A DNA stretch of 64,000 nt. Origin: Gammaproteobacteria bacterium (lineage in GTDB: Bacteria > Pseudomonadota > Gammaproteobacteria > SZUA-140). The stretch's first letter is position 1; each line of letters begins with the position of its first letter. The notes beneath the pieces were generated by a model that had not been told where the DNA came from, ran no database searches, and saw nothing but the letters and a program-made list of their open reading frames with translations. The DNA is taken from positions 1-64,000 of the forward strand of contig JACREF010000012.1 of assembly GCA_016218365.1 (NCBI GenBank). Reading direction: 5' to 3'. Positions 56,027 to 64,000 of this stretch are shown here, one piece after another. A program made the position numbers and the translations under genes.

Positions 56027-56172
56027 CCTATCGACGCCTATGAATATGAAAAATATATAATATTCATCAATCTCCGGTCACCATTCATCACCTGTCATCC
56101 AGCCCATCACACCGGCGCTGGTGATGAAGAAACCCCTCCCGCCAGCCGATACAGCAATCATGCAGAGTGGGT

Positions 56173-59043
56173 ATGGCCGGGGGGCGCGTGTTGCACGATA
56201 TCAATTCCATTAAAAAGCGTTTTCTGGCCTTAAACCGCGATCGGCTGAACCGAACCCGCGACACACTACGGCCACGGCAGCGTGAGGTCATGGATCTGCT
56301 GCCACTGCTGTTTCATTACAATCACCCGACCTTCCCCGGCTTTGTCTCCAAGGAGACGCCGGCCGGGATTTCAGAATATACGCCGAGCAGCCGCGAACTG
56401 GACGCCTGCAAGAGCCTGGTGCCCAGCTTTGATTTCAGGTCACGCGCATTGGCCCGCTATGACCTGCAAGCGCTGTTCCTGATGGGCAGTTGCGGCTCGA
56501 TCGCCTTCTCTTCCGACAGTGATTTCGATATCTGGCTGTGTCATCGCTCTGATCTGAACGAAAAGCAGCTGGCTGAACTGCAGGGCAAAGCGACGGCGAT
56601 AGAAAACTGGGCCGCGACTTATAATCTTGAAGTACATTTTTTCCTGATGGATGCAGAGAAATTCCGCTCCGGGCAGAACGTCGAGCTTTCTTCTGAAAGC
56701 AGCGGCAGCGCTCAGCATTTCCTGCTGCTCGACGAGTTCTACCGGACCAGCATCCTGTTTGCAGGTCGTTACCCTTTGTGGTGGCTGGTCCCGCCTGACA
56801 TGGAGGGTGACTATCAGCTCTACACCCGCAATCTGCTCGAGAAACGCTTCATCCGGGATGGCGAAGTTATCGACTTCGGCACCATCCCCGAGGCGCCGGT
56901 GCAGGAATTTTTCGGCGCTGCATTATGGCAGTTATACAAAAGCATCGACTCTCCATACAAGGCGGTGCTCAAGCTGATGCTGATGGAGGCCTATGCCAGT
57001 GAATTCCCGCGGACCCAGATGTTGTGCTCGATCTTCAAGAAACACATCTATGCCGGTGAGACCGATCTGCTGAAGCTCGATGCCTATATGATCCTGTACC
57101 GCAAGATCGAGGATTATCTGAATCAGGGCAATGACAACATCCGGTTGAATCTGGTCCGGCAGGCCTTCTATTTCAAATCCAATCAGAATCTCGGGCTCAC
57201 AACCCTGTCCGGACGATCCACCTGGCAGCAGGAAATGATGCTGACCGTGGTGCGCTCGTGGGGATGGAACGACGGCCAGCTGATGACGCTGGACTCCCGA
57301 CCCAAATGGAAAATTCTGCGCGTAACCGATGAACGTAATAACCTGATCAATGCACTGACGCAATGCTACCGTTTCCTGTCGAACTTTGCCCGCATGACGG
57401 TCCGGCTCTCGGATATAAACCAGAATGATCTCAATATTCTCGGACGTCGCCTGTATTCGGCCTTCGAGCGCAAGGCGGGAAAGATCGAGCTGATCAATCG
57501 CGGCATATCTGACGACATCCATGAAACCCATCTTACTTTCCATCAGATCTCAAAGACCGGCCATGATAGCTGGTCGCTGTATCAGGGCGCGGTTTTTTCC
57601 GATCAACTGTCTGCCACCAAGCCGCTGAAGCGTTCGCGCAGCCTGGTGGAACTGATCGCATGGTGCTTCCTCAACAAGCTGTTCGATGACCGGACCTCGA
57701 TTGCCGTCTTTTCCCGCGACGATGCCCTGAACAGCAATGATCTGAAGGCGATCATCCGGGTGCTGTCCAAGGTATTCCCTGGCGGGAATTCGATCAGCGT
57801 TTCATCGACTGATCTGCTTGAGCCGCCACGTACCCTGAATTCCACTGCGTTTATCAATGTCGGCTGCGAACCCTCCAGTCAGCTGCTGATCAATGGCATG
57901 CAGATGACCAGCAACCGGGTCGATGCCTTATGCTACAGCGGGATCTGCCAGAATCTGGTGTACTCCATTGACCAGGTTTCACAAAACAGCTGGCAGGAAG
58001 TCATGTCCCACCATTTTGAGGGAGAACACGGCACCATCGACTATATCTCGACCGTGTTGCAGGCCTCACCCCCCGGTACCGACGCCCGCCCCCCGGAGAT
58101 CTCCGTCAGCTGCTTCACCCCGGGACGCGGCATGAGCATCACCCAGCGGATTAACGAGCTGTATCGTGATATCACCAAATGTTACTATGGTGGCAAGCAT
58201 CCGATCACCACCCGTTATATCCTCAGCATTGCCAGAAATTATTATGCACTGTACTTTGACGATGGCATCTTGAAGTATAAGGTCTTCTCTTCCCTGTCCA
58301 CGCTGACTACCTTTCTTGCGCAGCCCATGGATGAGTTCTCCCCGGTGGTCATTGATCGTAATGCCATCAATCTGCAATTGCTGCCTTTGGTCTATTCACA
58401 TAATAAACCGGGTCAGATCCAGTTTTTTTACCAGGCGCAGGATTCCGATATTGACTGTCTGGTACTGGATGAACATGGATCGCTGTTCACACAACGGATC
58501 TCCGGTGTCAATGATCAGATCGTGATCCGTCATTTCAAACGTTTTCTTGACTCGGTGCTCTATCGCCAGCATATCGAGACTGTTGAATCAAAGCAGATGA
58601 TGGCTGGTAAACACCAGACCAAACCTGTACTGTTTTATCAGATTGGACGGGGACAGGATGGTCGGCTGGTTGCCGCAAGACAAACCCTGCATGAGCAACC
58701 ACGCGAGCAAGCCGGATATGTTGAGCTGCAGGTCATCACCGATGCCAATGAGCAAGGCGTCAAGATCTACACTATCTACCACGAAAATCAGGAATACTCA
58801 TCACTCGAATTCGGTGACAAGGTCTTCGAGGAGGTTGCGCGCAGCGTACTGCAACGCCGGGTCGGCAGTTCCATTTATCCGATCTATATCACCGATTTGG
58901 ACCTATCACGTAATGCGGTCGGCAAGCAACGGGGCGAATATCTGCAAACCCAGTTTTATTTGCTCAACAAACGCGAGATCGAGGAACGGTTCGCCCAAGC
59001 CCTGGCAGCAATGAGCCAGGGGAATCAGTCGGCGCGGGCCTGA
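56173..59043 (+). CDS. cyaA: Class I adenylate cyclase
   Basis: The 956-aa protein has the class I cyclase catalytic motif GSCGSIAFSSDSDFDIW near residues 105-121 (nucleotidyltransferase GS...DxD), then FFLMDAEKFRSG, and long conserved regions up to residue 650 including YLNQGNDNIRLNLVRQAFY. It makes cAMP from ATP in the cytoplasm. It is about 110 residues longer than E. coli CyaA, mainly in the C-terminal regulatory half. The start is uncertain: ATG 56173 is used, GTG 56167 and GTG 56188 are alternatives. It converges on ycgL with a 2-base gap. Confidence 0.94.
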   Translation: MAGGRVLHDINSIKKRFLALNRDRLNRTRDTLRPRQREVMDLLPLLFHYNHPTFPGFVSKETPAGISEYTPSSRELDACKSLVPSFDFRSRALARYDLQALFLMGSCGSIAFSSDSDFDIWLCHRSDLNEKQLAELQGKATAIENWAATYNLEVHFFLMDAEKFRSGQNVELSSESSGSAQHFLLLDEFYRTSILFAGRYPLWWLVPPDMEGDYQLYTRNLLEKRFIRDGEVIDFGTIPEAPVQEFFGAALWQLYKSIDSPYKAVLKLMLMEAYASEFPRTQMLCSIFKKHIYAGETDLLKLDAYMILYRKIEDYLNQGNDNIRLNLVRQAFYFKSNQNLGLTTLSGRSTWQQEMMLTVVRSWGWNDGQLMTLDSRPKWKILRVTDERNNLINALTQCYRFLSNFARMTVRLSDINQNDLNILGRRLYSAFERKAGKIELINRGISDDIHETHLTFHQISKTGHDSWSLYQGAVFSDQLSATKPLKRSRSLVELIAWCFLNKLFDDRTSIAVFSRDDALNSNDLKAIIRVLSKVFPGGNSISVSSTDLLEPPRTLNSTAFINVGCEPSSQLLINGMQMTSNRVDALCYSGICQNLVYSIDQVSQNSWQEVMSHHFEGEHGTIDYISTVLQASPPGTDARPPEISVSCFTPGRGMSITQRINELYRDITKCYYGGKHPITTRYILSIARNYYALYFDDGILKYKVFSSLSTLTTFLAQPMDEFSPVVIDRNAINLQLLPLVYSHNKPGQIQFFYQAQDSDIDCLVLDEHGSLFTQRISGVNDQIVIRHFKRFLDSVLYRQHIETVESKQMMAGKHQTKPVLFYQIGRGQDGRLVAARQTLHEQPREQAGYVELQVITDANEQGVKIYTIYHENQEYSSLEFGDKVFEEVARSVLQRRVGSSIYPIYITDLDLSRNAVGKQRGEYLQTQFYLLNKREIEERFAQALAAMSQGNQSARA

Positions 59044-61205: not shown

Positions 61206-61350
61206 GGGCTGTGAGCATCAAAATGGCTTGATCGCTGAAAGGATGGCAATTATATCATCTCTTAGCACCGGATCCTGGCAGTTTCAGTTATTTAGCGGAT
61301 TGACGACATAGCTATAGCAGCCCCAGGCCTTTAACTATGTGGTACCTGTC

Positions 61351-61848
61351 ATGAATAAACTTCCGGGATTAGAGGAGATCGGCTTCGGCGATGCTTTTCG
61401 TCGTGAACTAATCGATCTAATTGAAAAATCAAGTATATTTGATGATCTTCACCCTGAAGAACTGTCCCATCTGTCAGAATATATTCATGCCTACCGCGCC
61501 CTGACCGGGATCCGCCTGTATAAGGAAGGTGAGCGCAACAGTCACCTCTGCCTGCTGGTCGAGGGCCGGCTCGAGGTTCACAAGGAAGTGAAACCGGGCA
61601 CTGTGAAAAAACTCGCCGACATCCGGCCGGGACGCGTCATCGGCGAGATGTCTGTCATCGACGGCTATAATAACTCTGCATCGGTGCTGGTCGCCGAACC
61701 CTCTGTGCTGCTGTTGCTGACCCGTCAGAATCTTGAGCGGCTGTCCAGCGAATACCCTGCGCTCGGCGTCAAGCTGTTATGGAAGCTCGCCACCGGCCTG
61801 AGTCAGCGCTTGCGCCAGACCACTGGTCGCTTGGTAAATTACCTGTAA
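61351..61848 (+). CDS. Stand-alone cyclic-nucleotide-binding-fold protein
   Basis: The 165-aa protein has one cNMP-binding (cupin-like) domain: LRLYKEGE-type start (IRLYKEGERNSHLCLLVEGRL), then PGRVIGEMSVIDGYNNSASV, which corresponds to the phosphate-binding cassette. The Glu of GEM is present, but the Arg that binds the cyclic phosphate in CRP is replaced within NNSAS. There is no helix-turn-helix or kinase domain. The ATG at 61351 is used over GTG 61339. It could be a regulatory subunit or a binder of another ligand. Confidence 0.83.
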   Translation: MNKLPGLEEIGFGDAFRRELIDLIEKSSIFDDLHPEELSHLSEYIHAYRALTGIRLYKEGERNSHLCLLVEGRLEVHKEVKPGTVKKLADIRPGRVIGEMSVIDGYNNSASVLVAEPSVLLLLTRQNLERLSSEYPALGVKLLWKLATGLSQRLRQTTGRLVNYL

Positions 61849-61967: not shown

Positions 61968-64000
61968 ATGACATTACCGGTACGACTGGGTGTGATGCCG
62001 CCGTGGACCGGCCTGGTCGAACTTTATGGCCCGGAGATCACCTGGGCGGCCGAGATCGCGTGCGAAGAGATCAATGAGCGCGGCGGCCTGCTCGGGCGCC
62101 CGCTGGAGTTGATTATTGAGGATGACGGTAGCCTGCCGGCGACGGCGGTGCCTGCGGCGCGGCGCCTGATCGAGGAACATCATTGCTGCGCCATCATCGG
62201 CAATCTACTGTCCAACTCGCGCATTGCTGTGGCCACCCAGGTCGCTGAACCGTTACATATCCCCTACCTTAATTTCTCTTTTTATGAAGGCAGCATCTTC
62301 GGTCGCTACTTTTTCCATTTTGCGGCGCTGCCCAACCATCAGATCGACAAGATGATCCCGTACATGGCTCAACATTACGGACCAAAGATGTTCTTTGCCG
62401 GCAACAATTATGAATGGCCGCGCGGTTCGATTGATGCTGCCAAACGCTCCCTGGCACTGGCAAAGGGGGAAGTCGTCGGGGAAGAATATCTGTCCATAGG
62501 TGTGCAACCTGATGAGTTCGAACGTCTTCTCGATCAGCTCGCTAGCTCCGGTGCTAATGTGTTTGTGCCCTATTTTGCCGGTTCAGATCAGATCACCTTG
62601 CTGACCCGTTTTACCGAACGGGGATTAAAAAATCGCATGGCTGTGGTAATGGGGCACTATGATGAGGCCATGGTCAGCCATCTGCCGGTTCATGTTCGCG
62701 TCGGTTTGTATTCCAGTAACACCTACTTCATGTCGGTACAGACCCCGGAAAATCAGGCCTATATCAAACGTCTATCACGCAAGCTGGGGGTGGATGGTAT
62801 CTGGCCGTATGGCAAGGGTGTATTGACCAACTTTGGAGAAGGCACTTACCTGTGTGTCCATGCCTTTGCCAAGGCCGTGCAACAGGCGGGTAGCACCGAC
62901 GCCGAGGCGCTGGTGGCCGCACTGGAGCATGTCAGCCTTAAGGGTCCGCAGGGTAGTGTAACCATGGATCCACTAACCCATCATGCCCATGTAAACACCT
63001 TTTTGGCCCGCTGTAATGCCAACGGGACGTTTTCCATCATCGAGAAATTTGGTTGCACCCCGCCGAAGATTCCCGACCGCTATCAGGATACGATTGCGGC
63101 CTATACTACAAGGACTTTGCCACTACCTAACGCCTCGCAGCTGCCGCAGACTATCACAAACTCTGACAGTGATAGTTTGGCAGAACGGATACTGGGCGTG
63201 GCTGATACCACGCTGCTGGCGGCCAATGAGGCCGGCTCCATCGTTCACGTTACGCCCTCCGTTTGCCTGATGTTTGGTTACAATCGCGATGAGCTTATTA
63301 ATCAGCCAATGGATCAACTGCTCCCACCCCACCTACGCACCAAACATACACAACACATCCAAAAGTTTCTGGTGAGCGATAATACCGAACGACGCATGGG
63401 TTCACGCTCCGAGATCATAGGCTACCGTAAGGATGGCAGCTTTTTCCCGCTTGAGGCGTCTATTGCCAAGGTCCGCAATGGAGACGGGTGGATACTGGTC
63501 GTCACCATGAAGGATATTTCGTCACGTAAAATTCTTGAAGAAGATCAGTTATGGCTGGCCACCCATGACCCGCAAACCAAACTGCCCAATCGGGTACTGA
63601 TTCGGCAACGGCTCACCATGGCCCTGCAACGCCCTGACTTCGAACAGGGCCGCCACGTTGCAGCGATATTCGTTGAACTGAGCGGCCTCATTCCGTCTGC
63701 AATGGACTCCGGCAGCGAAAATCAACGCGGCTTCTTGAAAATGGTTGTTGAGCGCATACAGCGGGAGTTACGCCCCGGTGATATTGCTGGCCGGCTTGCC
63801 GCTAACCGATTTATCGTGGTCTGCGAGCGGGTGGAATCGCTGCAGACCCTCCAGTTCCTGTCAGAGGCCATCCGTGACTCATTGCAGTTGCAGGTCAATA
63901 ACGCTGATGCCAATAATAATATTATAATTAGCGTCGACTTCATCCTCGACCATGGCCTGGACACTACCGCAGACGAGTTACTGAACCCGCCGGTGACGGC
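61968..64000 (+). CDS. Cytosolic AmiC-like ligand-binding - PAS - degenerate GGDEF sensor (3' truncated by window)
   Basis: The frame is open from ATG 61968 to the window end (at least 677 residues). Residues about 5-370 match AmiC/UrtA-type type I periplasmic-binding-like domains (VRLGVMPPWTGLVELYGPEI, EINERGGLLGRPLELIIEDD). A PAS domain spans about 404-525 (ILGVADTTLLAANEAGSIVH, SEIIGYRKDGSFFPLEAS). Then THDPQTKLPNR (near 531) starts a GGDEF fold whose signature is LAANRF near 609, so diguanylate cyclase activity is unlikely. No signal peptide or membrane helix is seen, so the ligand domain should be cytoplasmic. An EAL domain may follow outside the window. Confidence 0.85.
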   Translation, partial: MTLPVRLGVMPPWTGLVELYGPEITWAAEIACEEINERGGLLGRPLELIIEDDGSLPATAVPAARRLIEEHHCCAIIGNLLSNSRIAVATQVAEPLHIPYLNFSFYEGSIFGRYFFHFAALPNHQIDKMIPYMAQHYGPKMFFAGNNYEWPRGSIDAAKRSLALAKGEVVGEEYLSIGVQPDEFERLLDQLASSGANVFVPYFAGSDQITLLTRFTERGLKNRMAVVMGHYDEAMVSHLPVHVRVGLYSSNTYFMSVQTPENQAYIKRLSRKLGVDGIWPYGKGVLTNFGEGTYLCVHAFAKAVQQAGSTDAEALVAALEHVSLKGPQGSVTMDPLTHHAHVNTFLARCNANGTFSIIEKFGCTPPKIPDRYQDTIAAYTTRTLPLPNASQLPQTITNSDSDSLAERILGVADTTLLAANEAGSIVHVTPSVCLMFGYNRDELINQPMDQLLPPHLRTKHTQHIQKFLVSDNTERRMGSRSEIIGYRKDGSFFPLEASIAKVRNGDGWILVVTMKDISSRKILEEDQLWLATHDPQTKLPNRVLIRQRLTMALQRPDFEQGRHVAAIFVELSGLIPSAMDSGSENQRGFLKMVVERIQRELRPGDIAGRLAANRFIVVCERVESLQTLQFLSEAIRDSLQLQVNNADANNNIIISVDFILDHGLDTTADELLNPPVT

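Follow-up and report, generated by a model that had tools for sequence, protein, structure and literature searches.

The receptor gene at the end of the 64,000-nucleotide stretch analysed here (the window) raises the question of whether a protein that resembles an intact c-di-GMP sensor has an output to act on. The initial annotation described a soluble AmiC-like binding domain fused to a PAS and a degenerate GGDEF domain, and predicted a one-component cytosolic sensor that controls c-di-GMP, probably through an EAL domain just past the window. The source genome is a 2.26 Mb draft of 33 contigs, with the window on contig 26. The frame was still open at position 64000, and when it was followed into the contig, its TGA was found 16 bases beyond the window end. 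The features of the gene are as follows.

61968–64000, + strand, running on to the TGA at contig positions 64014–64016: receptor open reading frame of 682 amino acids, starting with the ATG at 61968
61977–63092, + strand: ligand-binding domain of the Peripla_BP_6, AmiC/UrtA type, residues 4–375 (Pfam, column conservation, AlphaFold2, Foldseek)
63198–63527, + strand: PAS domain, residues 411–520 (Pfam, family comparison, PDB matches)
63543–64000, + strand: degenerate GGDEF fold, shortened at its C-terminus, residues 526–682 (column losses, model, branch length)
63798–63812, + strand: AANRF, residues 611–615, where relatives have (G/A)GDEF (sequence)

The domain search proposed by the annotation, for Peripla_BP_5/6 and PAS, found both: Pfam matched Peripla_BP_6 at residues 4–353 (E 2.4e-66) and PAS_9 at residues 416–518 (E 8e-14), as well as GGDEF at residues 531–656 (E 2e-11), the last over profile positions 1–127 of 161 only. 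The further Pfam matches were to overlapping related families only. An AlphaFold2 model built from a 21-sequence family alignment had a mean pLDDT of 81 and showed a GGDEF-like fold that lacks the final helix; residues 575–582, 644–650, and 675–682 were modelled at low confidence. The best PDB matches of the model in Foldseek were UrtA (8tg1) and AmiC (1qnl/1pea), with a target TM of 0.91, and the binding domain has the cytosolic AmiC fold by both sequence and model. The receptor has no signal peptide because its first codons already encode β-strand 1 of the binding fold, in the same register as in the relatives. No membrane helix was found in it either, the maximum 19-residue Kyte–Doolittle mean being 1.23. 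The soluble architecture that had been annotated, without signal peptide or membrane helix, was thereby borne out, and it is far above chance level.

The positions 80, 82, 102, 104, 105, 107, 148, and 150 of the binding domain are nearly invariant across the family. Ser82, Glu107, and Tyr148 align with Ser122, Glu146, and Tyr190 of Prochlorococcus UrtA, and Ser82 and Tyr148 also align with Ser85 and Tyr150 of AmiC, which we take to be ligand residues. Two of the four residues that hydrogen-bond urea in UrtA are kept, and UrtA Trp120 is replaced by Leu. Gln144 and Asn246, which bond urea in UrtA (PMC10392092), are Phe105 and Ala204 in the window copy, and the TIGR03407 score was 152 bits against a cut-off of 493. 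Since Gln144 and Asn246 are not retained, it is unlikely that urea is bound in the UrtA manner; an amide-like compound, held in a modified pocket, is a reasonable guess for the ligand. No second match to the binding domain was found in its own genome. For the PAS domain, the best solved matches in the PDB search were FixL, and His460 falls at the position of the FixL haem ligand. This position is His in all GGDEF-type members of the family and is not His in most of the kinase-type members described below, and haem binding by the PAS domain is plausible.

The output domain was expected just past the window. The contig extends 16.9 kb further, through mnmE to gyrB, indicating that the receptor end is not a contig end. 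Beyond the stop lies a convergent mnmE on the other strand, with its 3′ end 73 bases past the receptor stop, followed by yidC, dnaA, dnaN, recF, and gyrB (names assigned from sequence). Neither EAL nor BLUF was found 3′ of the receptor stop in the downstream contig sequence, and the stop with mnmE directly beyond it leaves no space for an EAL. A frameshift masking an EAL was ruled out, since 73 bases are too few. Elsewhere in the genome there are eight EAL matches, all on other contigs, but a domain search detected no BLUF in the whole genome, and no orphan EAL-BLUF of the receptor type was found. An immediate stop without an EAL was the very outcome that the annotation had named beforehand as counting against its proposal. 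A working sensor acting through an EAL beyond the window would match the architecture of the relatives, but it is refuted for the present assembly by the stop at 64014–64016 and the EAL-less sequence downstream, and we give it almost no credence.

The remaining GGDEF domain lacks the features of an active diguanylate cyclase (GG(D/E)EF, the NDxxGH..GD site, and the metal aspartates). The window copy has AANRF, the motif KLVNDTYGHExGD is changed to IPSAMDSGSENQRG, and the metal Asp is replaced. The EAL phosphodiesterase domain, present in the relatives, is missing. With a dead GGDEF and a deleted EAL, the window protein alone can neither make nor hydrolyse c-di-GMP. The predicted c-di-GMP switch is missing from the window genome, and the case is a warning that an intact-looking sensor is no proof of a working output.

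When a single genome was scanned for each species, about 40 relatives, 46–70% identical, were found in Gamma-, Beta-, and Alphaproteobacteria, Desulfamplus, Nitrospirota, Myxococcota, and others. The intact relatives consist of a binding domain, PAS, GGDEF, and EAL, mostly in about 970–1,200 amino acids, and almost all members retain the EAL catalytic motifs. In 19 relatives (L015, L019, L022, and 16 others) the C-terminus carries a BLUF blue-light domain, giving up to three sensors within one phosphodiesterase. Every relative with a complete open reading frame has an EAL or, in one clade, a histidine kinase. The five kinase-type members (L036, L037, L047, L052, and L053, four of them identified by reading the sequence) form a single clade (support 100/99) and carry a PAS different from that of the GGDEF-type members. 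Two other sequences, L046 and L066, also scored as EAL-less, but their open reading frames reach the end of their sequence, and L066 matches the complete L051; the window copy is thus the sole genuine case without an output. One member (L034) is interrupted by a stop. A stand-alone relative of the binding domain (L054:2876-4277) has a twin-arginine-like signal (RRDFLKTGAAIGAGAG) and is apparently exported.

The window copy shares with the family the conserved Peripla_BP_6 columns, a PAS directly after the binding domain, and the absence of a signal or helix; it lacks the EAL, as well as the BLUF expected in its clade. It is a family descendant that lost its output. The annotated mechanism, a one-component cytosolic c-di-GMP sensor, fits the relatives with GGDEF-EAL(-BLUF), to which it probably applies, but fails for the window copy, which has no EAL. 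Judging from the domain order and the intact motifs, closure of the amide/urea-type domain together with PAS (and BLUF) signals would set the EAL phosphodiesterase activity, and hence c-di-GMP, in the intact members.

In the binding-domain tree, the window copy groups with L015, L016, L017, L019, and L031 (support 88/82), all of which carry EAL and BLUF. Their absence from the window copy is therefore a loss, and its ancestor most likely had both. Conservation was compared over columns that are conserved at 90% or more among the other family members. Of 170 such columns in the binding domain, the window copy keeps 164 and changes 6 (median of the other members, 4), and in the PAS domain it changes 2 of 25 (median 0, highest 4). 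In the GGDEF domain, 19 of 47 columns are substituted and 4 more are gapped, so that 23 are lost, compared with a median of 1 in the others. On a fixed topology, the terminal branch of the window copy measured 2.31 in GGDEF, compared with 0.32 in the binding domain and 0.55 in PAS. The ratio of the GGDEF to the binding-domain branch was 7.2, versus a family median of 1.3, and that of the PAS branch was 1.7, versus 1.5. Since a few very short branches also give high GGDEF ratios (6.2 in L027, 4.2 in L021), more weight belongs to the absolute GGDEF branch, which is the longest in the family. Constraint on the binding and PAS domains of the window copy looks normal.

The second-longest GGDEF branch belongs to the Thiocapsa imhoffii member (L035:5995-9348), in which the GGDEF is decayed (TGRCEF) while EAL and BLUF are intact. 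This member is a natural phosphodiesterase-only form. It can be regarded as an intermediate of the loss, indicating that GGDEF decay can come before EAL loss, and a well-preserved binding domain is therefore no proof of present function.

The state of the GGDEF domain also bears on whether the truncation is an assembly error, with some 1.3 kb left out during assembly from a gene that actually extends into EAL-BLUF. The draft status of the genome (33 contigs) and the EAL of all intact relatives speak for such an error, but the site lies within a contig, the end of mnmE 73 bases away is intact, the GGDEF is already degenerate ahead of the break, and the genome holds no orphan EAL-BLUF of the receptor type. 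We consider such an error quite improbable.

Taken together, we favour the reading, with a probability of roughly 0.6, that the window gene belongs to a family of cytosolic one-component c-di-GMP phosphodiesterases but is truncated, enzymatically dead, and decaying after the loss of its output. In the window lineage the nucleotide and metal sites of the GGDEF are gone, and EAL and BLUF have been deleted. The binding and PAS domains are well conserved, which suggests that the output was probably lost fairly recently or in part; most likely, the receptor is at present in evolutionary decay following this loss.

The same conservation tells against decay, since binding and PAS domains without relaxation fit a protein still in use. 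The degenerate GGDEF frame contains neither a stop nor a frameshift; in a simulation of neutral substitution from the relatives' DNA, about 20% of the runs were stop-free at the observed identity loss, indels being uncounted. At most, the open frame is a hint that selection acted on the GGDEF or beyond it until recently. No GC3 shift was detected in the decayed part. An output-less yet working receptor, which passes its ligand and PAS signals by protein contact via the leftover GGDEF fold, for instance to another GGDEF/EAL protein of the genome or to a regulator, much as AmiC does with AmiR, is a possibility that we entertain tentatively. It would account for fully constrained binding and PAS domains beside a diverged GGDEF, for the frame open across the whole of that domain, and for the GGDEF-like fold retained in the model; the eight EAL matches elsewhere are possible partners, and E. 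coli BluF is a precedent for a degenerate domain acting by contact (PMC3509220). However, the output-less form was seen in a single genome, the GGDEF lacks its last helix and parts are modelled at low confidence, and the alignment behind the model consists of intact GGDEFs, so that the fold is partly assumed. Moreover, no conserved partner gene adjoins the family members. Somewhat more doubtful is a working receptor independent of c-di-GMP, whose AmiC-like domain and PAS, the latter perhaps with haem bound, would signal by protein contact through the leftover GGDEF fold; if true, a c-di-GMP enzyme would here have been converted in nature into a pure sensor-adaptor.

The gene neighbourhood was compared across the family, and no conserved neighbourhood was found. 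By eye, no AmiR-like gene was recognised among the open reading frames beside the window receptor, and the promoter and terminator scans gave nothing above chance. A stand-alone cyclic-nucleotide-binding protein of 169 amino acids without a DNA-binding domain is encoded at 61339–61848, 120 bases upstream of the receptor; on visual inspection, it seems to have Asn at the position of the CRP Arg that contacts the cyclic phosphate. Its gene is an old mnmG neighbour in the bacterial family of the window organism and lies near mnmG in related genomes. As no relative of it stands beside the receptor in the fetched loci of the relatives and the gene is tied to mnmG, it was rejected as a family-wide functional partner. 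Two genes from it, at 56167–59043, lies a probable class I adenylate cyclase, CyaA-like by sequence. The receptor was found in 0 of the 19 genomes searched in its bacterial family, which suggests that the gene was probably acquired by the window lineage.

Among known systems, the binding domain resembles AmiC of Pseudomonas aeruginosa (1pea, 1qnl, 1qo0; target TM 0.91), in which a cytosolic binding-protein fold serves as a regulator. AmiC (~23% identity) stands alone and acts on AmiR, whereas the window domain is fused to PAS and GGDEF. The best match in both sequence and fold is UrtA (8tg1, 7s6e, 7s6f, 8hic), which is an exported transporter subunit, unlike the cytosolic receptor. The haem PAS domains of FixL and DosP are the best PDB matches of the receptor PAS, which has His at the haem-ligand position of FixL and Ser481 at that of FixL Arg220.

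RmcA of P. aeruginosa, like the receptor family, combines a binding-protein domain, PAS, and GGDEF-EAL in one protein. It is a GTP-dependent phosphodiesterase responding to L-arginine (PMC9028604), and its binding domain is a periplasmic SBP_bac_3 (PMC8846402). In contrast, the receptor family has Peripla_BP_6, no signal or membrane helix, and often BLUF; EAL is missing from the window copy. A 2022 review (PMC8846402) names SBP_bac_3 as the one part of the binding-protein clan that had been studied in c-di-GMP networks, and no description of the binding domain-PAS-GGDEF-EAL(-BLUF) architecture was found in the literature searched. The intact family appears to couple a cytosolic ligand domain of AmiC/UrtA type to c-di-GMP turnover, often joined by a blue-light domain and a PAS with a FixL-like histidine, and its ligand is a directly testable question.

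For the window copy itself, FimX and BluF (YcgF) are precedents for degenerate c-di-GMP domains that have been retained to regulate or to make contacts (PMC8846402, PMC3509220). FimX retains an EAL with phosphodiesterase activity and BluF a whole, degenerate EAL, whereas the window copy retains a degenerate GGDEF and no EAL.
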